Shown here: in pieces, positions 9,058 through 61,447 of the stretch
Layout of the letters: every line of letters begins with the position of its first letter
Numbering within the stretch: the first letter of the stretch is position 1
From: Eubacterium sp.
GTDB lineage: Bacteria; Bacillota; Clostridia; Lachnospirales; Lachnospiraceae
NCBI GenBank assembly: GCA_021769425.1
Contig: JAETSX010000052.1
Location: forward strand, 1 to 61,447
DNA length: 61,447 nucleotides
Reading direction: 5' to 3'
The notes under the pieces: generated by a model
The model's input: the letters and a program-made list of their open reading frames with translations, nothing else
Database searches by the model: none
Told to the model about the DNA's origin: nothing
Position numbers and translations under genes: made by a program

Positions 9058-9699
9058 ATGCCGAATTACGGAAATGAAATTGCATCAATCAGTCTGGGAA
9101 GCATTATAGGGGGCGCGTTGAATGCGATTGTGGAGGCTCAGAGCCAGGCGGCCAATACAACGGTGGAATTCATCAAGTCCGTGGGTTTTACCACAGAGAA
9201 GGACACAGGCGTCATGCAGCCGGTTTATGTTGATTTCCAGTATGCAAAGAGACAGCATGTGAATGAAAAGAAGGAAGTAGAACAGACCGTATCCAATCTT
9301 AAGGTGCCGGTTCTTTCGATGGTGCCGATTCCCTTCATCCGTGTAGACGACGCAACCATTGATTTCAATGTGAAAATCAATTCCGTGGAAGAGACCAAAA
9401 GTTCTAAGGATACCACAGCGGGCGGAAGTACGGAGGCTAACGCAAGCTATAATGGATGGAGATTTAAAACGGGAATTAAGCTGAACGCTTCTTTTTCCAA
9501 TCAGAAAAAGAGCAGCATGTCAGATACGGTGAAGAAAGATTATTCCCTGAATGTCCATGTACATGCCGTGCAGGATGATATGCCGGCAGGAGTGGAGCGG
9601 CTGCTGGGAATTTTGGAGGATTCTATTATCCAGGTGACAGAGGAAACAAAAGAAAAAGTTGTAAACGAGAAGAAGACAGAAGGTGCGGAGGAATCATAA
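9058..9699 (+). CDS. DUF2589 domain protein (213 aa)
   Basis: Recognised as DUF2589 from the N-terminal ISLGSIIGGALNAIVEAQ helix and the core LKVPVLSMVPIPFIRVDDAT followed by a beta-rich region. There is no signal peptide, and the C-terminus is a charged EETKEKVVNEKKTEGAEES tail. It has an excellent AAGGAGG site 8 bases before the ATG. It lies between the two DUF4135 genes and is followed with a one-base gap by an unknown protein. The family has no established biochemical function. Its Ser/Thr-rich central segment (residues ~118-130) would be a plausible target for the neighbouring kinase-like proteins, but that is speculation. Confidence 0.75.
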   Translation: MPNYGNEIASISLGSIIGGALNAIVEAQSQAANTTVEFIKSVGFTTEKDTGVMQPVYVDFQYAKRQHVNEKKEVEQTVSNLKVPVLSMVPIPFIRVDDATIDFNVKINSVEETKSSKDTTAGGSTEANASYNGWRFKTGIKLNASFSNQKKSSMSDTVKKDYSLNVHVHAVQDDMPAGVERLLGILEDSIIQVTEETKEKVVNEKKTEGAEES

Positions 9700-9700
9700 A

Positions 9701-10555
9701 ATGATAACGTTAGGTGAATTTACAGGGCTATTAATGTCTGATTTTCTTCAGGCAAGAAAAATGGCGGACGCATGCGCAGCCTCTATTTCAGAGGAATATC
9801 ATGTGAATCCGCTGTTAAAGGGTATGCCGGTTCCGCGCTATATCATTTCAGAAGCAGAAATAGACGTTCCGGTTCAGATTGCAGGAGTGCAGCAGGTTGA
9901 AGTGGGAGAGGAAGAGATGAAAAAGCTTTTAATGAAAATAGAAAAAGTCCTTCCCACGCTGTTATACCGCAATATCAAAAACTGTTATTATGAAAAGCAG
10001 GAAGAGCGGGTGTTCCGGCAAAACGGCAGGATTGAGCCGGAAGCAGTGGGAGTGAAAATTACGGCTGATTCCGGAGAAACAGGAAAGGCGGTGGTGATAA
10101 AGCTGAGCGAGCTGCCGGATTTAAAGGAATCCTACAAACGGTCGGCAGCGTCCATCTGCAGCCTGATGAACCAATATATGGATACTTATATCAAAGAAAA
10201 TACGATATCTGATATGCGGCTGCTGGATTTTATAGATGCATTTACCGAAACGTTAAAAAGCGTAACAAAGCAGGAATTCAGCATATATCCAGATGAACAG
10301 ACACCTTTTATCAATAAAAATTCTCTGAAGAAGATGTGCCAGATTGTAGGAAGTACCATGTTTTTTGAATTTAAGGAGATTTTTGAGCAGCAGGAAGGGG
10401 TGCTGATTATTCCGGAAACCGGTAAGATGGAACAGAATTGCACGCCGGAACAGGTGATGCGGATGAAAATTAAAATCAGGGAGCAGGACGTTGATTTTAT
10501 TGTAAACAGAGATGATGAGACAGGAGAGACAGACAGGTTTTTAGCCTTGAGTTGA
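9701..10555 (+). CDS. Conserved protein of unknown function in the DUF2589/DUF4135 operon (284 aa)
   Basis: ATG 9701 is chosen over an upstream GTG (9683) because GGAGG lies 9 bases before it and it follows the DUF2589 stop by one base. No family is recognised with confidence. The N-terminal half has MKKLLMKIEKVLPTLLY and a segment resembling DUF2589 partners (VPRYIISEAEIDVPVQIAGV). The C-terminal part is beta-rich and acidic. No membrane span or signal peptide, so it is probably cytosolic. Position and spacing suggest it forms a complex with the DUF2589 protein. Confidence 0.6.
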   Translation: MITLGEFTGLLMSDFLQARKMADACAASISEEYHVNPLLKGMPVPRYIISEAEIDVPVQIAGVQQVEVGEEEMKKLLMKIEKVLPTLLYRNIKNCYYEKQEERVFRQNGRIEPEAVGVKITADSGETGKAVVIKLSELPDLKESYKRSAASICSLMNQYMDTYIKENTISDMRLLDFIDAFTETLKSVTKQEFSIYPDEQTPFINKNSLKKMCQIVGSTMFFEFKEIFEQQEGVLIIPETGKMEQNCTPEQVMRMKIKIREQDVDFIVNRDDETGETDRFLALS

Positions 10556-48344: not shown

Positions 48345-49058
48345 ATGAAAGGGACTTTTTCAGGAAACCCGGAGGAGTGCAACGCCCAAATCAGGACACA
48401 GTTAGAACAGCTTGCAGAGCCAAAGTTCCGGGAGTTTACCGCAAAGCTGCTTCCCGGGACAGAAAATATCCTGGGCGTGCGGCTGCCCCTGCTGCGGAAC
48501 ATGGCAAGGAAGCTTGCAAAGGGGGAGTGGAGAACATATCTTTCTAATGCCGCCGATGACAGTTATGAAGAAATTATGCTGCAGGGTATGACTTTGGGAT
48601 ATGCCAGGGGAGATCTGCAGGAAAAGAGGGAGTTTCTGGAGCATTTTATCCCCAAAATAGATAACTGGTCGGTTTGCGACAGCGTATGCTCCACCATAAA
48701 GCTGGCCCAAAGCCAGCCGGAGGAAATGTGGGAGTTTCTGCAGCCGTATTTGGATAGTTCTGAGGAATTTCATATCCGCTTTGCCCTGGTGCAGCTCTTG
48801 GATTACTATGTAAATGAAGCGTATCTTGCAAGGGTTCTAAAAGCGGCGCAGCAGGTAAAGCAGGAGGATTACTATGTCAATATGGCTCAGGCATGGCTGA
48901 TTTCCATCTGTTACCGGGAATTCCCAGAGAAGACGCTGCCGGTATTGGAAAAGAATTCTTTGAAGGATTTTACCCACAATAAAGCAATTCAAAAGATTAC
49001 GGAATCCCTGAAAGTGCCGAAAGAGGAAAAGGAACGGGTGAAAAGGCTGCGGCGATGA
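48345..49058 (+). CDS. AlkD-like DNA alkylation repair protein (237 aa)
   Basis: HEAT-like helical repeats throughout. Family landmarks are GVRLPLLRNMARKLAKG, EEIMLQGMTLGYA, IDNWSVCDSVCSTIK and YYVNMAQAWLISICY followed by THNKAIQKITES. DNA glycosylases of this fold remove bulky or charged N3- and N7-alkyl purines. A TATAAT lies at 48307-48312, 33 bases before the ATG. It pairs with ogt, which handles O6 lesions. Confidence 0.9.
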   Translation: MKGTFSGNPEECNAQIRTQLEQLAEPKFREFTAKLLPGTENILGVRLPLLRNMARKLAKGEWRTYLSNAADDSYEEIMLQGMTLGYARGDLQEKREFLEHFIPKIDNWSVCDSVCSTIKLAQSQPEEMWEFLQPYLDSSEEFHIRFALVQLLDYYVNEAYLARVLKAAQQVKQEDYYVNMAQAWLISICYREFPEKTLPVLEKNSLKDFTHNKAIQKITESLKVPKEEKERVKRLRR

Positions 49059-49191
49059 TGGTGGATTTTCGATGGGAACCAAGTATTTATTTTATTTCAC
49101 AATTTATTTCCGATGATGTGATACACTACCAGGAAACAAAACCCAGAAACAGCGCTTTGGGGAGAAAACGATAAGGTTTGGAGGGAGTAAA

Positions 49192-49932
49192 ATGGTAATA
49201 GGAATTTGTGATGATAGTGAATCAGATATTTTAAGAATAGAGCAATTCTGCGAAATATATATGGATGAGAATGGCATCCACAGCCAATACAAACGGTTTT
49301 CAGCCGGTGAGGAAGTGATTCAATATTGTGAAGATCCGGAGAATCCAATCATTCATTTGCTGTTTTTAGATGTGGAACTGCCGGGGATCAATGGCATTGA
49401 TCTGAAAGAAAGAATTATGAAAAATAATTTAATCTACCGCATTGCATTTATAACAAATTACAAAGAAAATGTGTATCGCGCATTTTCCCTGAAAACAATT
49501 GGATTTATTGATAAACCCTTTGCGCAGGAAGATATCTCTAAAATGATAAATCTCATGCAGGAAGAATTGAAAGAAAATATTGTGATTGAGTATACAGGAT
49601 ATCATGGGGAAAAAATCAATGTTCCGATAGAAAATATTCTGTATTTTGAAGCAGATGAGAGCTATACAAAAATAGTTGCCTATGGACAAAATGGCAGCGC
49701 CTGCCAATTGATATCCCGGAAGCTGGGGCAAATTGAGAAAGAGATGAAGGAGTATGGATTTATCAGGGTACATAAATCATATCTGGCGAATGCAGCGAAT
49801 ATGGTTGAGGCGGGAGAAAAAATTCATTTCAGGGACAGCGGGTTAACGATTCCAGTTGGGAGAAAATATAGAGAACAGGCGAGAAAATGCTGCTTATTAT
49901 TCGGAAAGGAACAAATGAGGAAACGCTTATGA
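49192..49932 (+). CDS. AgrA-like LytTR response regulator (246 aa)
   Basis: The receiver domain has GICDDSESD, phospho-acceptor D60 (LLFLDVELPGING) and conserved Lys in FIDKPFAQEDI. The LytTR DNA-binding domain occupies about residues 135-235 (IENILYFEADESYTKIVAYG, FIRVHKSYLAN, LTIPVGRKY). LytTR proteins bind pairs of direct repeats about 21 bp apart, and such a pair lies upstream of the RiPP cluster (51315-51348). The stop overlaps the kinase start by ATGA. GGAGGGAG ribosome binding site. Confidence 0.93.
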   Translation: MVIGICDDSESDILRIEQFCEIYMDENGIHSQYKRFSAGEEVIQYCEDPENPIIHLLFLDVELPGINGIDLKERIMKNNLIYRIAFITNYKENVYRAFSLKTIGFIDKPFAQEDISKMINLMQEELKENIVIEYTGYHGEKINVPIENILYFEADESYTKIVAYGQNGSACQLISRKLGQIEKEMKEYGFIRVHKSYLANAANMVEAGEKIHFRDSGLTIPVGRKYREQARKCCLLFGKEQMRKRL

Positions 49933-50022
49933 TTGGAGAAATCTTGCGCTTATCTGCTATTTGGAAAGGAACAAATGAGGAAACGCTTATGATAGGGGAA
50001 ATCTTGCGCTTATTGGTATATC
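49903..50022. repeat. 60-bp tandem duplication at the regulator/kinase junction
   Basis: The segment from GGAAAGGAACAAATGAGG through the kinase start codon region occurs twice, at 49903-49962 and 49963-50022. Period 60 keeps frame, so the kinase gains about 20 N-terminal residues, with MIGEILRL appearing twice. Confidence 0.9.
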
Positions 50023-51290
50023 TATTTCTGGAAATTATGAATTGCTTTCTGGCTTACGTTTTGTTTTTTGGCGCAAAAGTCACAAGTTCCAGGAAAAAAA
50101 TTATATTTTGTATAGGCAGTTTACTGATGCTCCATTGCTTTATTTTAATTGCATGGGATATGGAGGCTGCCAGCGCAACCCCCATGTTTACGATGATTCT
50201 GATTCCGATGTTTCTGTTTGAGATTTTTGACATCCGTTATCTGTATATTTATCCTTTTGTTGCACTGGCGTCTTCCATTTTAGGAATCAACGCGTCCTAT
50301 TTTCTGGGAATTGCTCTGGAACTGCCGGTTTCTGAGATTATTCACGGAAATTGGTATACAGTGATATGCCAGAGTGTGCCGACGATTGTGATGCTGATGT
50401 TATATCTTTTGATTAAATTGAGAAAGTGCAGGCCTTTTCAAATTAATCTGGACTTAAAGCAGTATATTGTTCTTTACGCAGCCGCAATTGGATTGTTTTT
50501 CATGGTGGCGCCTATGCAGAGCATAGCAGAAGGCGATTTTGATGAGTGGAATATCAATGCTGTTGGAGCTGCTTCCTCTATTGGCTGTACAGTGCTTGTT
50601 TTTGTTACGATATGGCAGGGAGTTTCGGTCAAAAAAGAAACTGAACAGAAAGAAAAGAGCGTCATGTTTGAGAAATATCTGAGCATCCAAAGGGAATACT
50701 ATGAAAGTTTACTGTATCAGGAAGAAAGAATGAGGAGATTTTATCATGATATGAACGCGCATATTACAGCATTGCAAGCCTATGTGTCAAACCAAGAAAT
50801 AGAAAATCTGCAGATATATTTAAGCAGAATGAGATCAGAGTCAGCTATTGATTATGTACATAAATTTACTGGAAATAAAATTGTGGACGCGCTTATTACA
50901 AAGCTGAAAGAAGATGCGGAGCGAAAAGATATTTTATTCGAGGTTCAGGGATATTTACAGGAAGAATCGGCCGAAAAATCATATGATTTATGCACTATAA
51001 TTTCAAATCTTTTGAAGAATGCAATAGAAGCCTGCGAGGAAATAGATGATAAGGGGCAAAGAAAAATTTCTTTAAAAGCCAATATGTATGAGAAAAGAAT
51101 TTGTATTATTGTAAAAAACAGTGTAAAAGAAAGAGTGAAATTTAAGGAAAAATTTCCTGTAAGAACAAGGGACGCCGGCATTTATCATGGCTTGGGATAT
51201 GGAAATTTAGAAGTGACGGTTCAGAAGTATGACGGCATAATAGAATGCCGCGCGGATGAAAAAGAATTTGAGGCGGAAATTGTAATATAA
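49929..51290 (+). CDS. AgrC-like sensor histidine kinase, GHKL type (453 aa)
   Basis: Start at ATG 49929, overlapping the regulator stop (ATGA). Six or so membrane helices (about residues 25-240) form the sensor, followed by a dimerisation segment with the phospho-acceptor His in FYHDMNAHITALQ (about H273). An HATPase_c_5 domain follows, with SNLLKNAIEACEE (N box) and GLGYGNLEVTVQKYDG (G box). The first 20 residues result from a 60-bp duplication; the ancestral start is probably the second MIGEILRL. No AgrB/AgrD pair is visible, so its peptide ligand is unknown. The 15-residue ORF just downstream is a candidate. Confidence 0.9.
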   Translation: MIGEILRLSAIWKGTNEETLMIGEILRLLVYLFLEIMNCFLAYVLFFGAKVTSSRKKIIFCIGSLLMLHCFILIAWDMEAASATPMFTMILIPMFLFEIFDIRYLYIYPFVALASSILGINASYFLGIALELPVSEIIHGNWYTVICQSVPTIVMLMLYLLIKLRKCRPFQINLDLKQYIVLYAAAIGLFFMVAPMQSIAEGDFDEWNINAVGAASSIGCTVLVFVTIWQGVSVKKETEQKEKSVMFEKYLSIQREYYESLLYQEERMRRFYHDMNAHITALQAYVSNQEIENLQIYLSRMRSESAIDYVHKFTGNKIVDALITKLKEDAERKDILFEVQGYLQEESAEKSYDLCTIISNLLKNAIEACEEIDDKGQRKISLKANMYEKRICIIVKNSVKERVKFKEKFPVRTRDAGIYHGLGYGNLEVTVQKYDGIIECRADEKEFEAEIVI

Positions 51291-51314
51291 AATGTATGCA
51301 GAAAAAAGCGATTT

Positions 51315-51348
51315 GTGTCGTTCATGGGTGGAAAAGTGTCGTTCATGG
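51315..51348 (+). promoter_or_regulatory. LytTR-type direct repeat, two 13-bp boxes, 21-bp period
   Basis: GTGTCGTTCATGG occurs at 51315-51327 and 51336-51348, identical, spaced by two helical turns. This matches the arrangement bound by AgrA/LytTR regulators. The promoter's -10 lies 26 bases after the second box. It is the only copy in the window, so the regulator encoded just upstream probably controls this cluster. Confidence 0.75.
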
Positions 51349-51374
51349 AACATGAGTTGCTTTTTTTGTGTAAA

Positions 51375-51380
51375 TATAAT
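51375..51380 (+). promoter_or_regulatory. -10 box of the RiPP-cluster promoter
   Basis: Perfect TATAAT downstream of the LytTR boxes and a T-run, without a recognisable -35. Confidence 0.6.
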
Positions 51381-51412
51381 ATCGTTTGAGTCAGGAAGTG
51401 AGGTGATTAAAA

Positions 51413-51460
51413 ATGATATATATTCTGGATTGGGATTGGATTTTGAAATTATTCAAGTAA
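51413..51460 (+). CDS. 15-residue hydrophobic peptide ORF (MIYILDWDWILKLFK)
   Basis: ATG 51413 has GTGAGGTGA about 8 bases upstream, an excellent ribosome binding site, and the ORF ends at TAA 51458-51460. The peptide is amphipathic, with WDW at residues 7-9 and Lys at 12 and 15. It is the first ORF after the regulated promoter and precedes the ABC exporter gene. It resembles short hydrophobic signalling peptides of Firmicutes in size only. It could be a pheromone, a leaderless antimicrobial, or a translated leader for control of the exporter. Confidence 0.5.
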   Translation: MIYILDWDWILKLFK

Positions 51461-51548
51461 AGTTACATTAAACGGTACTCTTTTTAAAAGACATTTGAAT
51501 GTAAAAATAAATGCGATAATGAAAATAAAAGCGAATCAGGAGAAAAAC

Positions 51549-53162
51549 GTGTCGTTATTGAGATATATTTTTGAGTATGTTAGAAAGAATAAGAAAGTGT
51601 TTACGATTATAATTATTGCTAACTTTTTAACATATTCATTGTCACTTATGTTGCCATACCTCAATGGTTATTTCTTTGATATGTTAATATTTGCTCCAAC
51701 TGAACAGAATATAGTCCGATTTGGTATAATTATAATTGTGCTTGGTACGGTTTCAACAGTATTAACTTATTTATTTAGTGTCTATAAGGCAGAAATAAAA
51801 TCAAAACTTATGTTTGAAATGTTTAATGATATAGTTTATTTTATACAACGCTCTGATTATATGCAGATCAGTAAATTTAACCCTACATATCTTCATGAAA
51901 GAGTACATACAGACATAAGCATTATATGGACATTTTTTTTTGAAAAGATAATAAGCGCCATATTCCAAATGATTACAATAGTTTTTGTTATTTTTGTGAT
52001 AGGTAAAATCAGTGTTCCATTACTTGTTTTAACAATAGTACTTATACCGGTTTATGTGTTGAGCTATATGCGAATGAAAAAGCCGCTTTATGAAAAAGGA
52101 TTGCGATTTAAAAATACACAATCCAAATTTTATAAGGTTATGAATGAACAATTTGAATTTATAAAAATTATAAAGCTATGGGAACATTATGATGTGAATG
52201 AGAGGAAGAGAATAAATAATTACAAAAAGTATTTAAAAGATTTCATGAAATATAATAAGTTGTCCTCGTTTTATAATAGCTTAGAAGGAAGCATATCACT
52301 TCTTTTTAAAGTCATTGCTTTAGTGGTAGCTGGATTTCAAATTTTGTATGAGAATTTAACACTAGGAACATATACTGTTGTATCTGTGTATTTTGGAATG
52401 TTAATTCAGAGTTTAAAATTTTTCTTTGTTTTCGGACAAGCTTATCAAGATGCGGATAATTCGTATAAGCGTTTACGTGAATTGCTTAATTTGCAAATGG
52501 AGAGATGTGGAGAAGTTCAAATTGTGGAAAAAATAGAAAATCTTGAAGTTAATCATATGAATTTTTCATATGGCAGCAGGTTGGTAATTGATGATTTAAA
52601 TGTTCAATTAAAGAAAGGTATTAATTTAATACTTGGGATGAATGGAAGGGGTAAATCAACATTATTGCATATTATCTGTGGTTTGCTCCTTGGAACAGAG
52701 AATAGTAATGTAAAAGTTAATTCATACAATTTAAGAGATATAGATATTAAGAGTTTTAGAAAAGACAAAATTGCTATATATATTCAAAATCAGAGAAGCA
52801 TGGATGAAACAGTGGAGCAAATGCTGTCAGACTATTTAGAAAGTGATTTGTCAAAGCTTTCAGAAATGATTTATAATGCCGGATTAGAAAAATTGTACCT
52901 AAGCAATCAGTTTCAAATACATAATTTTTTGAAGTGTAATATTTGTAGCCTATCTGGAGGCGAAGCACAGAGAATTCATTTGTTGCCAGTTTTTTTGAAA
53001 AATGCAGATTTGTTAATTCTGGATGAGCCTACATCAGATTTAGATTTTGGTACAAAAAAGGAGGTTGTTAAAATTTTGCAGAATAAGAACGACAGAATTG
53101 TTCTTATAGCCACTCATGAAGAACATTTATATGAAAAAGACGCAAATATAATTAATTTATAA
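51549..53162 (+). CDS. ABC exporter, fused membrane and ATPase domains (537 aa)
   Basis: GTG 51549 is favoured because AGGAG lies 6 bases upstream. Longer versions from TTG 51495 or ATG 51519 lack a ribosome binding site. Six membrane helices occupy residues ~15-290. The ATPase domain has Walker A LGMNGRGKSTLL, signature SLSGGEAQRIH, Walker B DLLILDEPTSDLD and H-loop THEEH. There is no C39 peptidase domain, so it exports a peptide that is already cut, or one without a GG leader. It is the probable exporter of the cluster product. Confidence 0.85.
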   Translation: MSLLRYIFEYVRKNKKVFTIIIIANFLTYSLSLMLPYLNGYFFDMLIFAPTEQNIVRFGIIIIVLGTVSTVLTYLFSVYKAEIKSKLMFEMFNDIVYFIQRSDYMQISKFNPTYLHERVHTDISIIWTFFFEKIISAIFQMITIVFVIFVIGKISVPLLVLTIVLIPVYVLSYMRMKKPLYEKGLRFKNTQSKFYKVMNEQFEFIKIIKLWEHYDVNERKRINNYKKYLKDFMKYNKLSSFYNSLEGSISLLFKVIALVVAGFQILYENLTLGTYTVVSVYFGMLIQSLKFFFVFGQAYQDADNSYKRLRELLNLQMERCGEVQIVEKIENLEVNHMNFSYGSRLVIDDLNVQLKKGINLILGMNGRGKSTLLHIICGLLLGTENSNVKVNSYNLRDIDIKSFRKDKIAIYIQNQRSMDETVEQMLSDYLESDLSKLSEMIYNAGLEKLYLSNQFQIHNFLKCNICSLSGGEAQRIHLLPVFLKNADLLILDEPTSDLDFGTKKEVVKILQNKNDRIVLIATHEEHLYEKDANIINL

Positions 53163-53228
53163 TTATGGGTTAACTATAAAGCTTTAGAGTTGGTTCCATA
53201 ATTGTGTTATAAATAAGGAGGCGGAATA

Positions 53229-54116
53229 ATGTTTATTGAAAATTTAGGAATGCTTGACAAAAAAATGTTATTGGATAGTGTTCCGAAGTTTGATGATGAG
53301 CAGTTGTACTATTTTAGACGGGAGGAGGGTAATTATCTTTCATTTGCAGTTAAAAATGGCAAAACTCAAGAATTAATGATGAACTGTTCAGCATGGGAGA
53401 TACTACAACTGTGTAATGGAGAAAAAAGTATATTAGAAATTGGCGAAGAATACAAGGAGCGCTATGCTTACATAGATAACAAGGCGAATTACTTGAAAGA
53501 CATCATCACCACATTATGTGTGTTTGATAAAATTTGGTTAATATCTTGGGGAAATGGAGGGTCACCATTTATGTTAAGTGCAGAGATTGGGTTAGGAGAT
53601 GGATACACATTAACATGGGCAAAAGAGAGCGACATTAGAGATATTGTTGCGACATATGAAAAGTATGTGGGGAACGAAGGATATTCTTTACATAATTGCC
53701 CTAATAATAAATTTAAAGGATTAAGTGAATATCAGAAGGAAACATCCCTGAGAAGTAAACTATTTTTCTATAAAGAAGATTTTTTTATTTTAAGAAATAC
53801 AGAGAAAGAAATTGTAGGAATTAGTTCCGTAAGTAATAACTATCCAGATACAGATATAGCTGAAATCACAACTTTAATTGTACCAGATGATATGCTTGAA
53901 GCGGTTCTTTTAGGATTAGAGAAAATATTAAAGGAAAATTTTTTATTTGATTTGAGTAAATTGAGACTTAAGGTAATTAAGGGAAATGAAAAGAATACGA
54001 ATCACGATACTTATGAAAAATGTGGATTTAAACAGACAGCGCTCTTAAAGGATGAGTACGGTAAAGACAATGATTTGGTATTTTATGATTACTTTTTTGA
54101 AGGAGTAGAAGGATGA
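53229..54116 (+). CDS. PqqD-like RiPP recognition domain fused to GNAT-like domain (295 aa)
   Basis: Residues ~20-110 look like a PqqD/RRE fold: LSFAVKNGKTQELMMN, then SAWEILQLCNGEKSILEIGE, the usual WxIL..C.G..S..EI pattern. Residues ~125-290 resemble a GNAT acyltransferase: TLTWAKESDIRDIVATYEKY, EIVGISSVSNNYP, EITTLIVPDDMLEAVLLG and YEKCGFKQTALL. RRE domains bind RiPP leader peptides, so the fusion may acylate the peptide or only use the GNAT fold as scaffold. Strong AGGAGG site. It overlaps the radical SAM gene by ATGA. Confidence 0.72.
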   Translation: MFIENLGMLDKKMLLDSVPKFDDEQLYYFRREEGNYLSFAVKNGKTQELMMNCSAWEILQLCNGEKSILEIGEEYKERYAYIDNKANYLKDIITTLCVFDKIWLISWGNGGSPFMLSAEIGLGDGYTLTWAKESDIRDIVATYEKYVGNEGYSLHNCPNNKFKGLSEYQKETSLRSKLFFYKEDFFILRNTEKEIVGISSVSNNYPDTDIAEITTLIVPDDMLEAVLLGLEKILKENFLFDLSKLRLKVIKGNEKNTNHDTYEKCGFKQTALLKDEYGKDNDLVFYDYFFEGVEG

Positions 54117-55153
54117 ATAAAGGAACAAGATATACAGTCGGTCCATATCAGCTATCGTTAGACATTACCAATAAATGCAATTTAAGATGTCTGCATTGCT
54201 ATAATGCAAGTGGTGAAAATAATGTAATGAATGAAGAATTAACAGATAATGAAGTAAAAGATTTTATTATCTCCTTAATACCTATGAAATTATTAAATTT
54301 GTGCTTTTGCGGTGGAGAGACATTGTTAAGAAAAGAGCTTATATATGACTGTGCGAGAATGCTTTCAAATAGTGGAATACGTACTGCACTTGTTTCAAAC
54401 GGTATACTGGCATCAGAAGGTGTAATACATAATTTATACTTCGCAGGAATTAAAAGTATCCAATTTAGTATTGATGGGTGTTGTGCAAAAACGCATGATA
54501 GATTAAGAAATCAACAAGGTGTTTATGAAAAGGTAACAAAGGCTTTAGATATTGTAAGAAAATACGATATGGAGATTTCTGTTTCGTTTGCTCCTACATC
54601 GTTTAATGTTGGAGAATTAGAAGATTTGCATACCTATCTTGAATCATTGTCATATAAAAATAAGATGGAGTTGAGACTACAGCCGCTTATGCCTCTTGGA
54701 AGAGGAAATAAGAATATGGAAGAAATTTGCCCGACGGAGGAACAATATCGTAGGTTAGTAAATACCGTGAATAAAATCAATCGTAGTGTTCCAAAGGTTA
54801 AGGTTGTGTGGGGAGATCCAATCGATCATTTAATACGTTTTCCATATTTAGAAGATTTACCTATGTATTATACAAGTGTTAGGTCAAATGGCGATATTGT
54901 GATTAGTCCATATCTTCCACTGGTGATTGGAAATATTAGAAAACATACATTTAAGCAATATTGGATTGGCGGGTTGCAGTCTATATGGAAGAAAAAAATT
55001 CCACGATATATGGCTTCTTTTGTCAAGTGCATTGACGATATGGGTACATTAAACGAGAAGTTTCCAGAAACATTTATGAATGATATATATATTGATATGT
55101 TAGAAGAAGATTTGGATGACATGAATGTATTATATGATAAAATGGCGAAATAA
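54113..55153 (+). CDS. Radical SAM peptide-modifying enzyme, SPASM cysteines not seen (346 aa)
   Basis: The radical SAM cluster motif is CNLRCLHC (C22, C26, C29). GGETLLRKE and the barrel follow in standard order (SNGIL, FSIDGCCAKTHDRLR). The C-terminal part has SNGDIVISPYLPLVIGNIRKHTF, where SPASM enzymes carry auxiliary-cluster cysteines. Here that position reads SPYLP with no Cys, so auxiliary clusters are probably lost or rearranged. It starts 4 bases inside the PqqD-GNAT gene, so the pair likely forms a complex that acts on the precursor encoded 210 bases later. Confidence 0.85.
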   Translation: MNKGTRYTVGPYQLSLDITNKCNLRCLHCYNASGENNVMNEELTDNEVKDFIISLIPMKLLNLCFCGGETLLRKELIYDCARMLSNSGIRTALVSNGILASEGVIHNLYFAGIKSIQFSIDGCCAKTHDRLRNQQGVYEKVTKALDIVRKYDMEISVSFAPTSFNVGELEDLHTYLESLSYKNKMELRLQPLMPLGRGNKNMEEICPTEEQYRRLVNTVNKINRSVPKVKVVWGDPIDHLIRFPYLEDLPMYYTSVRSNGDIVISPYLPLVIGNIRKHTFKQYWIGGLQSIWKKKIPRYMASFVKCIDDMGTLNEKFPETFMNDIYIDMLEEDLDDMNVLYDKMAK

Positions 55154-55363
55154 AATTTATAATACCTCAGAAAAAGATTTCAGGTTAGAAGAACACGCAT
55201 CTAAAAGGCTCCATTACCTCAGGCTAACTACGATGAGCAACTATGCGGCAATCAGTTAACATCCAATCCTTAGACAGAAAGCTAAGTAGGAGAAAGAACA
55301 GATTTTAGGGTTTATAGGTATCCCTTAAATAACCTAAATACATTGTGTAAAGGAGGAAAAAAT
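55154..55363 (+). promoter_or_regulatory. Candidate structured leader RNA before the precursor gene
   Basis: 210 bases without a gene. Possible base-pairing: CTCC...GGAG enclosing most of the region (about 55209-55293), CTCA with TGAG, and the perfect hairpin CTTAG-ACAGAAAG-CTAAG. ACCTCAG occurs twice. No known riboswitch class was recognised, and in particular no cobalamin or SAM riboswitch signature. A TATAAT sits at its start (55159-55164), so it may have its own promoter. Confidence 0.35.
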
Positions 55364-55531
55364 ATGGCAGATATGAATAATATGCAATATGAGCCGCCAG
55401 AAATTCTTGGACTCGACGGAGAAGATCAAATCGCTACATATGGTACAGAGTGGATATGGGAAACATATTATGTAACTTATGTAAATGGCGCAGTTGCGGG
55501 AGATACGGTAGTTGTATGCTTCAACATCTAG
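55364..55531 (+). CDS. RiPP precursor-like peptide (55 aa)
   Basis: ATG 55364 has AGGAGG 8 bases upstream; the upstream in-frame start at 55343 is rejected. The peptide has a leader-like part with the QYEPPEILGL motif (residues 8-17), common near the recognition region of radical SAM RiPPs. It continues with ATYGTEWIWETYYVTYVNG and a Val/Thr-rich end with a single Cys at position 52. WIW, the aromatic cluster and the beta-branched tail would suit radical cross-linking, epimerisation or C-methylation. It stands between the modifying enzymes and the immunity genes. No similar second precursor was found. Confidence 0.72.
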   Translation: MADMNNMQYEPPEILGLDGEDQIATYGTEWIWETYYVTYVNGAVAGDTVVVCFNI

Positions 55532-55563
55532 TGGATATACTCTGTATATTACGAATGCATGAT

Positions 55564-55607
55564 TGTGAAAGATTCCTGCTTGCATTTTTATGTGGGAATC
55601 TTTCACA
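55564..55607 (+). terminator. Hairpin after the precursor gene (terminator or attenuator)
   Basis: TGTGAAAGATTCC and GGAATCTTTCACA pair perfectly over 13 bp with an 18-base loop. No T-run follows, so partial read-through into the immunity genes is likely, giving more precursor than downstream mRNA. The loop has a T-rich stretch. Confidence 0.6.
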
Positions 55608-55705
55608 TAGAAGCAATTATATTATAATTAAGAACAAATTAGAAAGCGAAGTTGTTTTATATATTGCGAATGTTTACATGAAGTAAGACAAATTGGAGGT
55701 TTATG

Positions 55706-56455
55706 ATGAGTGAGGCAGAATGTATATTACATTTGTCTGATATTGAAAAAAGCTATGAAGGAAATAGGGTTTTAAAAGGGGTTACGCTATCTTTGCAATG
55801 TGGGAAAATTTATGGGTTAATAGGTCAGAATGGAGCAGGAAAGACAACTCTGATGAGAATAATTGTGGGGCTAATATTTCCTGATAGTGGAAGTATTCAA
55901 TTGTATGGTAAACATGAAAAGAATGGTTTTGTAAGGAAACATGTAGGATGTTTGATTGAAAGTCCTGCATTATATGCGAATTTAACAGTGTTGGAAAATT
56001 TGAATATTGTACGAAAACTAAAGCATATTGAACTTACAGAATCAATAAAAGATATTTTGGATATGCTTGAAATGGATGATATTTCAAAAAAGGTGAAAAA
56101 TTGTTCGATGGGAATGAAACAAAAAGTTGGAATTGCTTTGGCATTGATGGGAGAACCGCGACTGTTGGTGTTAGACGAACCGTTAAATGGTTTAGATCCT
56201 ATTATGGTTATGCGATTGCGCAAGTATTTACAAAAGATAGTGAAAGAGAGAAATATAACAGTTTTAATATCCAGTCATATTTTAAGTGAAATAGATAAAA
56301 TTGCTTCTGATTATATATTGATGGATAGTGGTAAAATTAAGAAAATAATTACAAAAAAAGATATTGAAATAGATAGTAAAGATAAAAGTATAGAAGAGAT
56401 ATATCAGGGGTGGTTGGAAAGGGGAGGAGACAATGAAATGCTTAATTTGCATTGA
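55706..56455 (+). CDS. ABC transporter ATP-binding protein, LanF/BcrA-like (249 aa)
   Basis: ATG 55706 lies 6 bases after GGAGG; ATG 55703 is too close. Walker A GQNGAGKTTLMRI, signature CSMGMKQKVGIALALMG, Walker B LLVLDEPLNGLDP and ISSHILSEID. This is the two-subunit type that gives self-immunity to lantibiotics and bacitracin (LanFEG/BcrAB). Overlaps the permease gene by 23 bases. Confidence 0.88.
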   Translation: MSEAECILHLSDIEKSYEGNRVLKGVTLSLQCGKIYGLIGQNGAGKTTLMRIIVGLIFPDSGSIQLYGKHEKNGFVRKHVGCLIESPALYANLTVLENLNIVRKLKHIELTESIKDILDMLEMDDISKKVKNCSMGMKQKVGIALALMGEPRLLVLDEPLNGLDPIMVMRLRKYLQKIVKERNITVLISSHILSEIDKIASDYILMDSGKIKKIITKKDIEIDSKDKSIEEIYQGWLERGGDNEMLNLH

Positions 56456-57182
56456 AATATATAAGACAATAAAGCAAAGGCATTTTCTTTTTCTTGTGAG
56501 TAGTGCAATAGTTTTAGGTATGGTAACGATTGGATTGAATCAGGCGCTTGTTAGCGCCCACCCTCAGATAGTGAATACAGGAAGCAATATATTTGTAAGT
56601 TCATTGAGCAATATTAGTGTCAGCATTATTTTGTGCGCTATTTTCATACACTTTCATATTGGAAATGAATTTGCAAATCGGACCATAACAACGATGATTG
56701 AAAGTGGATTTTCAAGAATAGAAGTATATTTATCGAAAGTGATAACATGTGGAATTTATTGTGCAGGATTAATGTTAGTATATCCAATTGTTTCCAGTGT
56801 TGGTACAACGTGCTTAAATGGCTGGGGAGAGGATGCTTTAATTACTGACATTTGGGGAAAAGTTTTTATTTTTCTGATATTAAATGCTTCCATATTGACA
56901 TTTTGCATTATAGTTGAATTTTTAGTGAAATCTAATACAATATCACTTATATTTAATATGCTTATAGTTGGCGTTGGAACTGAGATCCTTCTTGGAATCT
57001 CAACAGAATTTCAAGTTTTGGAAAAAATATTGAATATTACGCCAATAGGCAAAATAAACCTTATAAGCAGCACAATGCTGAAAATAACTGATTATATGAC
57101 TGTGTTAGTGATATCGGTTATTTGGAGTGGTGTAATTTTGATGATAGGATACTATAGGTTTAGAAAATTAGATATTAAATAG
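56433..57182 (+). CDS. ABC-2 type permease, immunity transporter partner (249 aa)
   Basis: Six hydrophobic segments. The first is ASSAIVLGMV-like and the loop NEFANRTITTMIESGFSR has the charged helix typical of LanE/LanG-type permeases. GGGAGGAG ribosome binding site inside the ATPase gene. It works with the adjacent ATPase, probably to expel the mature peptide from the membrane of the producer. Confidence 0.82.
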   Translation: MKCLICIEIYKTIKQRHFLFLVSSAIVLGMVTIGLNQALVSAHPQIVNTGSNIFVSSLSNISVSIILCAIFIHFHIGNEFANRTITTMIESGFSRIEVYLSKVITCGIYCAGLMLVYPIVSSVGTTCLNGWGEDALITDIWGKVFIFLILNASILTFCIIVEFLVKSNTISLIFNMLIVGVGTEILLGISTEFQVLEKILNITPIGKINLISSTMLKITDYMTVLVISVIWSGVILMIGYYRFRKLDIK

Positions 57183-57197
57183 TAGAGGGATGATTAA

Positions 57198-57608
57198 ATG
57201 AAAAAAGAGTGGAATAAATATGATCTTGCAAGTGTAATTCTCACTGGTGTGAATGTAGTATTAGGAATTGTTATGTATTTTATATTAGATAATGAAATTG
57301 CAATTCAGTGGCAGGGGACAGTTCCGACTTCTATCGTAAGTAAAAATTATATTTTTTTATTTCCATTGATTGCAGTCCTTTTTTTTGTTAGTGGAAAAAG
57401 TATTTTACGGTATGTAAGTTATAAATGGTTTAAAGATGTTAAGCAGATATTGATTGACTATTTAAATATGTTCGTGCAAATAATATTTATTACATGCCAA
57501 TTATATATAACATTATATGCTTTTGGTTTGCGAATTACAGTTGAAGGTATATTTATTATTGAAATCGTTATAGGAAGCGTATTTGGGATGAAATTGAGGA
57601 AAAAATAG
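57198..57608 (+). CDS. DUF1648/SdpI-like membrane protein, probable immunity protein (136 aa)
   Basis: Four membrane helices. The first loop, LDNEIAIQWQGTVPTSIVSK, has the IAIxW and SK pattern of DUF1648, found in SdpI-type immunity proteins, which protect Bacillus against SdpC and sense it. It stands right after the immunity transporter and before the cobalamin-binding enzymes. The DUF1648 match rests on this loop only. Confidence 0.6.
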   Translation: MKKEWNKYDLASVILTGVNVVLGIVMYFILDNEIAIQWQGTVPTSIVSKNYIFLFPLIAVLFFVSGKSILRYVSYKWFKDVKQILIDYLNMFVQIIFITCQLYITLYAFGLRITVEGIFIIEIVIGSVFGMKLRKK

Positions 57609-57624
57609 ATAAGGGGCGCTAATA

Positions 57625-59031
57625 ATGAAAATTATTTTAATAGCATTACCGCAAAAAGTGGATAGTGTAACATTTGAGGCTGTGGAAATTGCACCGTTAG
57701 CATTATATTTATTGGCAGCAGTACTAAAGAAAGAAAATCATCAAGTTAATATTATTGATCCATGTGAATTCCTGCAATTCCAAAAGAATGAAAATATAGA
57801 CGAGATGTGCGCTGCGTATGTAATGAAACGAATTAGAGAATATGAAGCAGAGGCAGTTGCTTTCTCTGTGAATTCATTTAATTGGTCAAATAGTAAAATT
57901 GTTGTTGATATGGCGGGACAAGAGTTTCCAAACATATATATAGCTTTAGGAGGATTGCATGCCACTATATTTGCTGAACATGTGTTGGAAGTATCAAAAG
58001 CACATGTTGTTATGCGTGGTGAAGGAGAAAAGGTTATTGTGAATTTGTGTAATACCCTGGAAAATGGAAAAGAATTATGTAAGGTAAAGGGAATTACATA
58101 CAAAATGAATGGATGCATTTTTTCGAATGAGGATGAGGAACCATTAACAATTGAGGAAATGAAAACTACCCCATTGCCAAGTTATGAAATGCTTCCAGAA
58201 AATAATCCATATACGCAAATGCCAGTAGAGTCTTCAAGAGGTTGTTACTATAGTTGTGCTTTTTGTTCGATTCCCCATAGGCATATTTGGAGAGGATTGG
58301 ATGAAAATACTGTAATTGAACGTACTAAGCATGCAATGAAGTTCCAGAATAATATTATAAGAGATTCACATGTTTTATATGTGGATGATTGCTTCACTGC
58401 AAGCGGAGATAGAGCAATAAATATTTTTTCGAGACTTGGGCAATTATACGGGAACAGTCATAAATTTTTCATCGAAGCAAGAATTACAGATATCATTAGA
58501 AGAAATATATTACAGAATATTCCATCTGAAATGATTTCTTCTATGCAGATAGGTGTTGAATGTGGCTACAATGAAGGGTTAAAAAGAATACATAAAGGGC
58601 TTACGGTGGAACAATTATATGAGGGATTGAGAATTATAAAAGAATATAAATTTGAGCATCATTGCTTTTTATCTTTTATTATAGGCTTCCCTTGGGAAAC
58701 TATGGATATGATCAATCAGACATTGGATACAATAGAAAAAATTAGTTCAGAATACCATATAGTATGTAATTTGAATTGGCTGCTATTTTTACCATCAGAT
58801 TTATGGAAAGAGAGAAAAGAGTATCATATAGATTTGGAGGAGGATGTATTTGATCAAGTTTTATGGTATGGGAATAGTAAGTTTTTTTTTCAATCACATC
58901 CTATGATTTGTTGGGAAGATATTTTGCAAGTTGAAGAACGGATAAGGATAATGCAATTGAAGGGTCCGGTTGGATACCGGCGAAGTATAGGATTAGAGGA
59001 TGGTTATAAGGAACCATCTTCTGCATATTAA
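57625..59031 (+). CDS. Cobalamin-binding-type radical SAM enzyme, copy 1 (468 aa)
   Basis: Residues 1-170 form the B12-binding-like Rossmann domain: MKIILIALPQK, VAFSVNSFNWS, IALGGLHATIFAEHVLE, VVMRGEGE. No DxHxxG is present, as is usual in radical SAM members. The cluster motif is SRGCYYSCAFCS (C207, C211, C214). The barrel continues with VLYVDDCFTASG, FFIEARITDII and MQIGVECGYNEGLKRIHKG. Such class B enzymes C-methylate or otherwise functionalise unactivated carbons of RiPPs such as polytheonamide and bottromycin. It should act on the precursor encoded 2 kb upstream. Confidence 0.85.
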   Translation: MKIILIALPQKVDSVTFEAVEIAPLALYLLAAVLKKENHQVNIIDPCEFLQFQKNENIDEMCAAYVMKRIREYEAEAVAFSVNSFNWSNSKIVVDMAGQEFPNIYIALGGLHATIFAEHVLEVSKAHVVMRGEGEKVIVNLCNTLENGKELCKVKGITYKMNGCIFSNEDEEPLTIEEMKTTPLPSYEMLPENNPYTQMPVESSRGCYYSCAFCSIPHRHIWRGLDENTVIERTKHAMKFQNNIIRDSHVLYVDDCFTASGDRAINIFSRLGQLYGNSHKFFIEARITDIIRRNILQNIPSEMISSMQIGVECGYNEGLKRIHKGLTVEQLYEGLRIIKEYKFEHHCFLSFIIGFPWETMDMINQTLDTIEKISSEYHIVCNLNWLLFLPSDLWKERKEYHIDLEEDVFDQVLWYGNSKFFFQSHPMICWEDILQVEERIRIMQLKGPVGYRRSIGLEDGYKEPSSAY

Positions 59032-59045
59032 ATAAACTGGGTTTG

Positions 59046-60794
59046 ATGATGGAAAAATATATTATGAATACAGATATTGTTTTGGTTGATAGTTTAAGTT
59101 ATAGCAATATAGGGATTAAGCCACAGATTGGATTACTTTCTCTCAGACAAGTGCTGGAGAGAGAGTATAAAGTAGAATTGGTCAATTTTGATTTTCTGTG
59201 GGCAAATGCTATACTGGCATTATCAGAAGATTTAGAGGAGAATTTATGTAATTGTGCAGATTATATTATGAAGTTTCAAGCGAAAGTGATAGGATTTTAT
59301 ACGATTTGTGACTCATACCCAATATCAGTTCTTCTTGCAAAGCGTATCAAAGAAAGGAATGAAAATGTCATTATACTATTTGGAGGCCCCCAAGCTTCAC
59401 TAACTGCTGTAGATAGCTTGGAAAGTTTCTTTTTTGTAGATTACATTTGTATTGGAGAGGGAGAACGAGTGATAAATCCCCTTTTAAAGGCAATAATAAA
59501 AGGAAAGGTTCATGAGGTAAAAAAGATACCTAATCTTGCGTATCGAGATAGAGGTGAGATAAAATGCAATCCATTGTTGCCGATGATAACAAGTCAGGAA
59601 CTTTCAGGATATACAGTGACAAATTATCAGCCATTTGAAAAATTTTTTAAAGATTCTATGAGTATTGAAGTCGGAAGGGGATGTCCATTTAGTTGTACAT
59701 TTTGTTCTACTTCCTTATTTTGGGGGCATTGCTTTCGGATGAAATCAATAGATGAGCTGATTTTTGAAATGAAGTATTTTCATGAAAAATTTCATGTTTC
59801 GGAGTTTAAATTTGAACACGATATGTTCACTCAAAATAGAGATTATATTATGTCTTTTTGCAACCGGATAATAGAAGAAAAATTGCCATATACATGGACA
59901 TGCTCTTCGCGAGTTGATGTTTTGGATGATGAGATTATTACTTTATTGAGCAAAGCTAAATGTACAAAGATGTATATAGGAATCGAATCGGGTTCTCCTT
60001 TTATACAACGTGTGATACATAAAAATTTAGATATGGAAAAAGTAAAACAAAATATTGTGCTTTTGCATCAAAGCGGGATAGAGGTTACAGCCTCTTTCAT
60101 TTATGGATTTCCAGAAGAAAAAGTAGAACATTTAAAAGAGACACTTGAGATGATATCGTATTTTTATTTGCATGGAATATTTAATATTCAATTACATATG
60201 TTTATTCCATTGCCAAAAACAGACGAGTTGTTAAAGGTAGAGGAACAATTAGTATTTGATAAAAATAAAATTGATTTAGGGATTTATCATTCTGGTATTG
60301 CGGAGAAAGAAACGCAGGAACTGATTTCGTCATTTCCTAAGGTATTTTCGCAGTTCTATACTTTCCCGTCAGAGGTAAGAGACAGCAATGTTTCTTTAAG
60401 TTTGTTTATAATGTATATTTCTAATTCGTACAAAATATTCCAATGTTGTATAAAATATTTTATACGAATATATGGATTGTATGAACTGTATCGAAAGTGG
60501 TATCAGGATTTTGAACAGCTAAGGTTGGAAACTACCTTAAATCAAGAATCAAAGAAATTTGAGGATAAATATCTACAGCTGAATACTTTTATGTATCAGT
60601 GTATTTCAAATGAAATAAAGGGTTTGGCTGATCAGGAAATTAAAAATTACTTTGATGCGGAAGTTCAGTTATATAAATTTTCACTTAGTAAAAAATTAGT
60701 AGAAGCATTTGAATTTAAGTTTGATTATTTTGAGGCGATAAATCATAATATATACATAGAAAAAGAATTTTTTTTCATTATGAGAAAAAATTAG
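59046..60794 (+). CDS. Cobalamin-binding-type radical SAM enzyme, copy 2 (582 aa)
   Basis: The start is one of several near 59043-59061, all with weak ribosome binding sites; ATG 59046 is used. Residues ~1-200 are the B12-binding-like domain (IGFYTICDSYPISV, ILFGGPQASLTAV, ICIGEGERV). The cluster motif is GRGCPFSCTFCS (C213, C217, C220). The barrel shows FEHDMFTQNRDYIM, WTCSSRVDVLDDE and IGIESGSPFIQRVIHKN. The last ~150 residues are an extra helical region not seen in copy 1. Last gene of the cluster. Confidence 0.85.
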   Translation: MMEKYIMNTDIVLVDSLSYSNIGIKPQIGLLSLRQVLEREYKVELVNFDFLWANAILALSEDLEENLCNCADYIMKFQAKVIGFYTICDSYPISVLLAKRIKERNENVIILFGGPQASLTAVDSLESFFFVDYICIGEGERVINPLLKAIIKGKVHEVKKIPNLAYRDRGEIKCNPLLPMITSQELSGYTVTNYQPFEKFFKDSMSIEVGRGCPFSCTFCSTSLFWGHCFRMKSIDELIFEMKYFHEKFHVSEFKFEHDMFTQNRDYIMSFCNRIIEEKLPYTWTCSSRVDVLDDEIITLLSKAKCTKMYIGIESGSPFIQRVIHKNLDMEKVKQNIVLLHQSGIEVTASFIYGFPEEKVEHLKETLEMISYFYLHGIFNIQLHMFIPLPKTDELLKVEEQLVFDKNKIDLGIYHSGIAEKETQELISSFPKVFSQFYTFPSEVRDSNVSLSLFIMYISNSYKIFQCCIKYFIRIYGLYELYRKWYQDFEQLRLETTLNQESKKFEDKYLQLNTFMYQCISNEIKGLADQEIKNYFDAEVQLYKFSLSKKLVEAFEFKFDYFEAINHNIYIEKEFFFIMRKN

Positions 60795-60826
60795 AGATGC
60801 TTTATATGTGACAATAGAACGCTATT

Positions 60827-61333
60827 TTAAGTTAAGACTGGCGCAGTCGTAAAATCTGAGATACAGGTGCATAGTAGCTCCATCCGGCTGAGCCTGCGGA
60901 TGTTGGATTCAATCATCATGGAATCCATGCGTCTGACTTTACCGCTGATCCCCATCAGCTTGGCAATGGAAGCACTTAAATTTTTTACGCAGTCGTGGTA
61001 AAGATCCTTGTTATGGAGTGTCCCATAGTCATAACATCTCCTGCGGAAACGGATTAAGGTCTTATCGCTTAAAGGCTGTTCTTCAAAGCTTGTCGTATGC
61101 AGGGCGTACTGGAGCCGGAAATCCAGCATAAGGTTCTCGACCATCTCATCATCGGAATAATCAAAAAGCTCTTTGATGATGAGCGCACCGACGATCACGT
61201 TGACCGGGGTATTCGGCCTGGAGGCCATATCGCTGTATAAAACAGAAAATCGCTTTTCATCAATGGCAGGGAATATTTCATCGGCAAAGACTTTTGCCCA
61301 GGATTTTTCCAATGCTTTCTGTTCCCTGGCGGT
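60827..61333 (-). pseudogene. IS1182-family transposase fragment
   Basis: Contains the IS1182 N-terminal half: ALEKSWAKVFADEIFPAIDE, RPNTPVNVIVGALIIKELFD, LHTTSFEEQPLSDKTL and RRMDSMMIESN. It is cut before the catalytic DDE core. The N-terminus is also lost: homology ends at about 61333, where an end of the 92-bp element begins. The open frame that continues to 61405 is therefore artificial. It marks the right border of the AT-rich island. Confidence 0.85.
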
Positions 61334-61359
61334 TATACTCACGAGCAATAAAATTTGCC
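61334..61359 (-). repeat. End of the 92-bp dispersed element, copy D (26 bp only)
   Basis: TATACTCACGAGCA and ATTTGCC match the right end of copies A-C at 21 of 26 positions. The rest of the element is absent. It joins the IS1182 fragment directly. Confidence 0.55.
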
Positions 61360-61374
61360 AAAATAGATGAATTA

Positions 61375-61417
61375 CTCCCGAAAGATATGCTATAATTAAG
61401 AACATATCTTTTGGGAG
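61375..61417 (+). promoter_or_regulatory. Inverted repeat with promoter -10 and ribosome binding site
   Basis: CTCCCGAAAGATATG (61375-61389) and CATATCTTTTGGGAG (61403-61417) match at 14 of 15 positions. The 13-base loop holds TATAAT (61391-61396), and the second arm contains the GGGAG ribosome binding site of the next ORF. Possible operator. Confidence 0.5.
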
Positions 61418-61426
61418 GGAAAAGCC

Positions 61427-61447
61427 ATGGAAAATATTAATAAGTCT
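61427..61447 (+). CDS. Start of an ORF that runs off the window
   Basis: ATG with TTGGGAGGG about 9 bases upstream. Only seven codons (MENINKS) are visible, so no identity is possible. Confidence 0.4.

Follow-up and report, generated by a model that had tools for sequence, protein, structure and literature searches.

Gene Organization of the Locus

The window analyzed here, a whole contig of 61,447 nucleotides from Eubacterium sp. (family Lachnospiraceae; GenBank assembly GCA_021769425.1, contig JAETSX010000052.1), contains at positions 51315 to 60794 a set of co-directional genes on the forward strand. These genes very probably form a cluster for a ribosomally synthesized and post-translationally modified peptide (RiPP) that belongs to a family defined by a YxxP leader, a PqqD-GNAT protein, and a radical S-adenosylmethionine (SAM) enzyme. 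Open reading frames (ORFs) and domain searches recover the full gene set named in a first-pass annotation, each gene at its position: an exporter, a PqqD-GNAT fusion, three radical SAM enzymes, a 55-codon ORF, an ABC pair, and a DUF1648-like gene.

The first gene (51495 to 53162, start uncertain) encodes an ABC exporter, whose Pfam matches include the membrane domain ABC_membrane and the ATPase domain ABC_tran. Next come the PqqD-GNAT fusion, in which a PqqD-like domain precedes a GNAT fold that lacks the acetyl-CoA motif (53229 to 54116; Pfam, structure, and relatives), and the radical SAM enzyme common to the family (54113 to 55153; Pfam and alignment), which carries CxxxCxxC and CxCGGE motifs and a C-terminal part without conserved cysteines. 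The precursor gene (55364 to 55531), supported by homologues and codon comparison, encodes 55 residues with a YEPP leader and the core TYGTEWIWETYYVTYVNGAVAGDTVVVCFNI. Behind a stable hairpin predicted by folding (55564 to 55607) lie an immunity-type ABC ATPase (55703 to 56455; lantibiotic protection model TIGR03740, 200.2 bits, cut-off 309.75) and an immunity-type ABC-2 permease (56433 to 57182; PF12730, 27.4 bits, cut-off 27). A DUF1648-like membrane protein, possibly an SdpI-like immunity protein (57198 to 57608; 27.2 bits, cut-off 28.7), and the two cobalamin (B12) radical SAM enzymes 1 (57625 to 59031) and 2 (59043 to 60794) complete the cluster.

The coding genes of the cluster have a G+C content of 27 to 34%, but the short precursor gene reaches 41%; for comparison, the value is 47% in the region from 40 to 49 kb and 37% in the regulatory gene pair adjoining the cluster. 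Directly behind the cluster, at the contig end, an ORF at 60827 to 61405 on the reverse strand resembles a transposase by eye. The cluster was probably acquired horizontally, and the G+C contrast with the 40- to 49-kb region together with the transposase-like ORF suggests that this acquisition was recent. The contig probably breaks at a repeated insertion sequence behind the cluster. Since the window is the whole contig, more genes may lie further downstream.

The Family and Its Loci

Comparison of related loci demonstrates that, across the family, a YxxP leader peptide goes together with a PqqD-GNAT-fold protein and a single family of radical SAM enzymes. Twelve uncut loci were counted, namely, the window, L002, L005, L011, L012, L019, L020, L021, L030, L031, L034, and L047; a 13th, L036, whose contig stops immediately after the radical SAM gene, was dropped. 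All 12 have a PqqD-type gene no more than about 2 kb from the radical SAM gene, and 11, the exception being L020, have a short ORF with an N-terminal YxxP motif at up to about 3 kb from it. The first 11 loci contain 98 small, nonoverlapped ORFs within 5 kb, of which 15 (13 precursors and 2 background ORFs) show YxxP among their first 15 residues. A stricter count demanding a Shine-Dalgarno pattern (48 ORFs, 8 matches) finds YxxP ORFs in 8 of these 11 loci, missing L011 and L019 and again finding none in L020. The precursors in these counts were partly recognized by YxxP itself, and the fairest check is L047 from Collinsella aerofaciens, found afterwards via a plasmid collection. Here, a 51-residue ORF without a leader is annotated, with a published start 27 bases late; the ATG at 8036 (ORF 8036 to 8218) yields MYETPEVEKM..., a YxxP leader.

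The closest locus, L002 of Blautia massiliensis GD8, has the same gene order of exporter, PqqD-GNAT fusion, radical SAM enzyme, precursor, ABC ATPase, permease, DUF1648-like protein, and B12 enzyme 1; four of its genes were scanned or searched individually. The class-wide core consists of the PqqD-GNAT protein, the radical SAM gene, and the precursor, usually with an exporter, and the B12 enzymes are add-ons. Both B12 enzymes had been described as part of the cluster, which holds for the window; across the family they are accessory, and enzyme 2 is missing from GD8.

The remaining loci vary around this core. L012 is a second family locus in the same Eubacterium genome (C213:18000-34000) with radical SAM genes at 6551 and 7602, a separate GNAT-like gene at 8690, a PqqD gene at 9209, the precursor at 10127 to 10309, and an Rce1-like protease at 5677. 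L011 contains four tandem precursors. L030 and L031 encode longer cores, one of them with an asparagine every six residues; both have two cysteines in the core and an extra gene of 463 residues that by eye looks radical SAM-like, and L030 has a YhfC-type membrane protease that could cleave the leader. In L020 (G157:C67:30000-46000), the radical SAM and PqqD genes stand, by eye, amid genes resembling those of acyl carrier and adenylate-forming proteins, with a LytTR-type regulator nearby; the pair may serve another purpose here.

The family occurs in several groups of bacteria and is sparse. Against genome contigs, the PqqD-GNAT fusion gives no match as a single query, and its alignment matches only Blautia massiliensis GD8; it is found in 1 of 299 genomes of the taxonomic family (that of Eubacterium sp. 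itself) and in 2 of 64 from the genus of GD8. The radical SAM enzyme occurs, with the Eubacterium genome counted, in 2 of 99 relatives and in 3 of 397 family, 3 of 313 order, 2 of 391 class, and 3 of 398 phylum genomes, in overlapping draws with E value cut-offs of 1e-70 to 1e-85; the family, order, class, and phylum draws scored at most five or six candidates per genome. Viral contigs contain no match to the PqqD-GNAT fusion. The radical SAM alignment finds 11 loci there, of which only L036 is close (36% identity), with phage- and recombinase-like genes upstream and no PqqD-like gene seen by eye. Phages give no radical SAM match at an E value of ≤1e-30, and plasmids give one record. Blautia and Collinsella are gut genera.

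The Precursor Peptide

The precursor ORF comprises exactly 55 codons, with its ATG at 55364 behind AAAGGAGG. A search of 5.8 billion proteins identifies 16 precursor proteins, the window's included. Together with L002, they show variable leaders and a nearly fixed core, TYGTEW[IVA]WETYYVTYVNGAVA[GA]DTV, and W30, W32, Y35, Y36, and Y39 are invariant in these 17 aligned type A peptides. The WIW motif singled out in the first-pass annotation is present in the window, and its position is not fixed among relatives, which have WIW, WVW, or WAW. Over the 32 core codons, including the stop, the window and L002 share 13 identical codons, 14 with synonymous differences, and 5 with nonsynonymous differences, corresponding to a dN of 0.097 and a pS of 0.77 with saturated synonymous sites. 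The gene is real and its core is under purifying selection, as the comparison with GD8 and the shared gene order there indicate; the proposal that the 55-residue ORF is a conserved precursor is borne out. Its core contains one cysteine, that of L002 none. Neither NCBIfam nor Pfam contains a match for the window precursor.

Nine of the 16 database entries (P0021 to P0026 and P0028 to P0030) carry an out-of-frame start from further upstream, MIECFIIREYFDKTNIYE, fused with the precursor frame at differing points; these joins around the leader are either assembly errors or real frameshifts. The hairpin region behind the gene (55525 to 55640) folds with −29.4 kcal/mol (z score of −3.6). This hairpin may act as a partial terminator or an mRNA stabilizer, and its placement would fit a need for the precursor in excess over the products of the downstream genes. 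No known Rfam RNA matches the region from 49000 to 61447 at an E value of ≤0.5.

The PqqD-GNAT Fusion and the YxxP Leader

The PqqD match falls below the Pfam cut-off of 23.4 bits in the window (16.8) and L002 (16.7), just under it in L012 (22.1), L020 (23.2), and L034 (22.7), and above it in 7 of the 12 scanned members (L005, L011, L019, L021, L030, L031, and L047). Structure comparison identifies the C-terminal half of the fusion as a GNAT fold. None of the 23 fusions and none of the four stand-alone GNAT-like proteins has the acetyl-CoA motif at the expected position, and judging from these sequences, the GNAT part looks catalytically dead. A function as an acetylating GNAT was rejected because of the missing motif. 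The first-pass description of a PqqD-GNAT fusion is retained for the PqqD-type partner of a YxxP leader and for the GNAT fold, with a GNAT half that is apparently inactive. For the fusion, no NCBIfam model reaches its cut-off.

Besides the protein of the window, 13 relatives of the fusion were found. Longest contigs of equal size (40663, 9418, 10211, 8357, 3210, and 69885) recur across the lists of PqqD-GNAT, precursor, and radical SAM proteins, which suggests, as an indication and not as proof, that the three lie on shared contigs. Sections of two papers describe YxxP as a ligand of the RiPP recognition element (RRE) in precursors of lasso peptides and linear polyphosphorylated peptides (PMC13381572, PMC12710340).

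The Radical SAM Enzymes

All three enzymes of the window score above the cut-off of Radical_SAM (PF04055), and the two cobalamin-type enzymes match the B12-binding domain PF02310 with 51.5 and 33.0 bits (cut-off 32.1). The best 25 NCBIfam matches of the common radical SAM enzyme all stay below the cut-off of the respective model. An alignment of 51 proteins, made up of 45 among 120 listed of the 469 at an E value of ≤1e-60 and six from the window and the loci, shows that the cysteines of the CxCGGE motif are highly conserved (C64 in 50 of 51 and C66 in 49 of 51). Nearer the N-terminal end, C80 is a cysteine in 32 of 51. Beyond residue 185, the best cysteine column reaches 16 of 51, and 26 of the 51 proteins have at most one cysteine in their last 130 residues; no conserved C-terminal cysteines of a SPASM or twitch cluster are found in this alignment. 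The fold is near those of SuiB and SkfB, a generic match.

B12 enzyme 1 is 62% identical to its counterpart in L002. It has no match at an E value of ≤1e-30 in five more distant genomes, and its matches in plasmids (52 records) are generic, all below 60% identity. At this threshold, GD8 lacks a match to B12 enzyme 2, whose matches outside the window are partial and 26 to 27% identical: two in G361, one of the five genomes, and one elsewhere in the Eubacterium genome. Enzyme 2 thus looks like a late tailoring addition. Its nearest NCBIfam model is ApyD (287 bits, cut-off 750), matched over positions 4 to 466 of 645. TIGR03975 scores 58.4 and 112.1 bits with the two B12 enzymes (cut-off 281.85).

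Regulation, Export, and Immunity

The two genes upstream of the cluster, likewise on the forward strand and taken for an Agr-like pair in the first-pass annotation, are instead those of a LytTR response regulator (49192 to 49932; Pfam LytTR, 51.9 bits, and Response_reg, 45.6 bits), a candidate regulator of the cluster, and a GHKL histidine kinase (49887 to 51290; HATPase_c_5, 72.1 bits), the latter with an uncertain start and, as listed, overlapping the regulator ORF; no agrB- or agrD-like gene is seen by eye among the listed ORFs from 47 to 61 kb. Between this pair and the exporter, a repeat search finds two perfect 13-bp copies of GTGTCGTTCATGG at 51315 and 51336 (51315 to 51348, forward strand), 21 bp apart, the sole perfect repeat of this period of at least 11 bp in the window. 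A 21-bp period is a hallmark of LytTR operators, and control of the cluster by the LytTR regulator through this candidate operator is plausible. The L002 stretch from 8100 to 8400 contains no repeat of this period, so such control is local at best. A possible 15-residue ORF, MIYILDWDWILKLFK, lies behind GAGGTG at 51413 to 51460, between the repeats and the exporter.

No C39 domain is found in the exporter by Pfam, which supports the expected export without such a protease; C39-type export was rejected on this ground. Proteins of the DUF1648 or SdpI type occur in 7 of the 12 uncut loci, four of them above the cut-off: SdpI family proteins in L005, L019, and L021 and DUF1648 in L047. DUF1648 falls just under the cut-off in the window and L002 and is weak in L034. 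Such a gene was not noticed by eye in the stretches of L011, L012, L020, L030, and L031, where not every ORF was scanned. The SdpC toxin model matches the precursors of two relatives weakly (E values of 0.18 and 2.7), which may be an effect of composition.

Relationship to Known RiPP Classes

The gene set fits no named RiPP class, as the first-pass annotation had supposed; this applies to every class tested, and no name was found in NCBIfam or in the open literature searched. With the proteusins (PoyD, PoyC), most relatives share cores rich in valine, alanine, and glycine, and both systems combine radical SAM with B12 radical SAM enzymes. In contrast to the nitrile hydratase-like leader of proteusins, the leader here is a short YxxP peptide, and the PqqD-GNAT fusion is a discrete protein. 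NCBIfam and Pfam find no nitrile hydratase- or Nif11-like leader in the window precursor. The PoyD family epimerase model TIGR04517, searched in seven genomes including that of Eubacterium sp., hits neither these clusters nor any other part of the Eubacterium genome. Four of the seven give five weak matches in all (best 13.9 bits, cut-off 325); sub-cut-off matches also appear in 8 of 14 control genomes. Membership of the PoyD family was rejected on the missing match at the clusters. NX5N pairs number none in the window core, four in L031, and two in L021.

Epipeptides (YydF, YydG/EpeE) likewise involve a radical SAM enzyme acting on an aliphatic peptide, possibly with cysteine as the hydrogen donor. 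Unlike EpeE, which has more than one [4Fe-4S] cluster according to a PDB title, the common enzyme has no conserved C-terminal cysteine, and the window precursor matches no NCBIfam model. Sactipeptides and ranthipeptides do not fit either, as most cores of the family are free of cysteine (9 of 13) and the SPASM or twitch cysteines are not conserved. Lasso peptides and linear polyphosphorylated peptides share the RRE-read YxxP leader motif, here found in the window and 10 of the 11 other uncut loci, but differ by the radical SAM chemistry of this family; Pfam matches of the window cluster proteins include no lasso cyclase and no leader (B2) protease. Aminopyruvatide is related through ApyD, a tyrosine β-methylase according to part of PMC10635010, as the nearest model of B12 enzyme 2, well under its cut-off; no MNIO or P450 enzyme is present among the window cluster proteins. 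The SDP system (SdpC/SdpI) resembles this family in the SdpI or DUF1648 protein, the hydrophobic peptide of the relatives, and the weak SdpC-like matches. It differs in that maturation here involves radical SAM enzymes, and the window precursor matches no SdpC-type toxin.

The searched portions of the open-license PMC literature, a scope outside which subscription papers fall, do not describe this gene set. PMC10373908, the only paper found to contain all of the words PqqD, GNAT, radical SAM, and RiPP, uses them apart in the sections seen, and section 4 of PMC9062424 contains no such system.

Proposed Maturation Pathway and Alternatives

We regard the architecture as well supported and infer the chemistry. 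Two of the 13 family cores, both among the four L011 copies, contain no aromatic residue at all. With these and the nine cores without cysteine, neither thioether nor cyclophane chemistry can be class-wide, and a cross-link as the common reaction was rejected. The residues common to the cores are valine, alanine, isoleucine, leucine, and glycine, so the common enzyme must act on the backbone or on aliphatic carbons. Residues of this kind are the targets of known radical SAM epimerases, which need a protein cysteine as the hydrogen donor, as set out in part of PMC8326336. By elimination and analogy, a tentative assignment of the common enzyme as a Cα epimerase is possible. Another aliphatic change, such as desaturation, hydroxylation, or the formation of cyclopropylglycine, which arises from valine according to part of PMC9062424, is rather unlikely: a TVGG repeat is not seen by eye in the cores, the fold match is generic, and the conserved auxiliary-cluster cysteines of SPASM enzymes are missing. 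For the subtype of the window, the radical SAM enzyme might instead cross-link the aromatic residues of EWIWETYY into a cyclophane-type product that the B12 enzymes methylate. The invariant tryptophans and tyrosines and the proximity of the fold to SuiB and SkfB speak for this reaction, yet the same enzyme family stands beside cores without aromatics and mostly without cysteine, and its C-terminal cysteines are not conserved, which makes it improbable. Of the several carbon-centered modifications suggested by the first-pass annotation, C-methylation by the B12 enzymes would fit, and a cross-link is unlikely as the common chemistry.

The SdpI and DUF1648 proteins and the lantibiotic protection-like ABC pair lead us to favor, with some reserve, a membrane-active bacteriocin as the product. 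The type A core is near-invariant, which is unusual for arms-race toxins. The invariance, together with the adjoining LytTR/GHKL pair, would suit a signal or cofactor-like peptide. The immunity-type ABC pair and the recurrence of DUF1648 or SdpI proteins argue against such a peptide and make it an unlikely product.

The best explanation of the whole, held with moderate confidence, is a RiPP cluster for a membrane-active, bacteriocin-like peptide. Here, the LytTR regulator would open a promoter at the 51315 repeats, and the PqqD domain would grip the YxxP leader of the precursor, with the GNAT-fold half, devoid of the acetyl-CoA motif, serving to present the core as a scaffold instead of working as an acetyltransferase. 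Aliphatic positions would then be the target of the common radical SAM enzyme, most simply by abstraction of the Cα hydrogen, and return of a hydrogen from C64 or C66 of the CxCGGE motif would produce D-residues. In the window subtype, one or two of the B12 enzymes may then C-methylate the core rich in tryptophan, tyrosine, and valine. The exporter would release the peptide, some peptidase would cut off the leader, and protection of the producer would fall to the ABC pair together with the DUF1648-like protein. More doubtful is the extension of this scheme to a RiPP class spanning several Bacillota families and Collinsella, with a PqqD/dead-GNAT scaffold, a CxC epimerase of neither the PoyD nor the EpeE type, Val/Ala-rich D/L membrane channels, and SdpI-type immunity, in which the window product is also C-methylated by two B12 enzymes.

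Implications

Two types of radical SAM peptide epimerases, PoyD and YydG, are distinguished in part of a 2023 review (PMC10373908); if the proposed chemistry is true, the common enzyme would be a third. The small set of precursor, PqqD-GNAT protein, and one radical SAM enzyme could then be rebuilt in Escherichia coli, and the natural cores without cysteine or aromatic residues make the chemistry easily readable by mass. The pathway would further assign a role to GNAT folds in which acetyl-CoA binding has been lost and would tie SdpI/DUF1648 immunity to radical SAM peptides.

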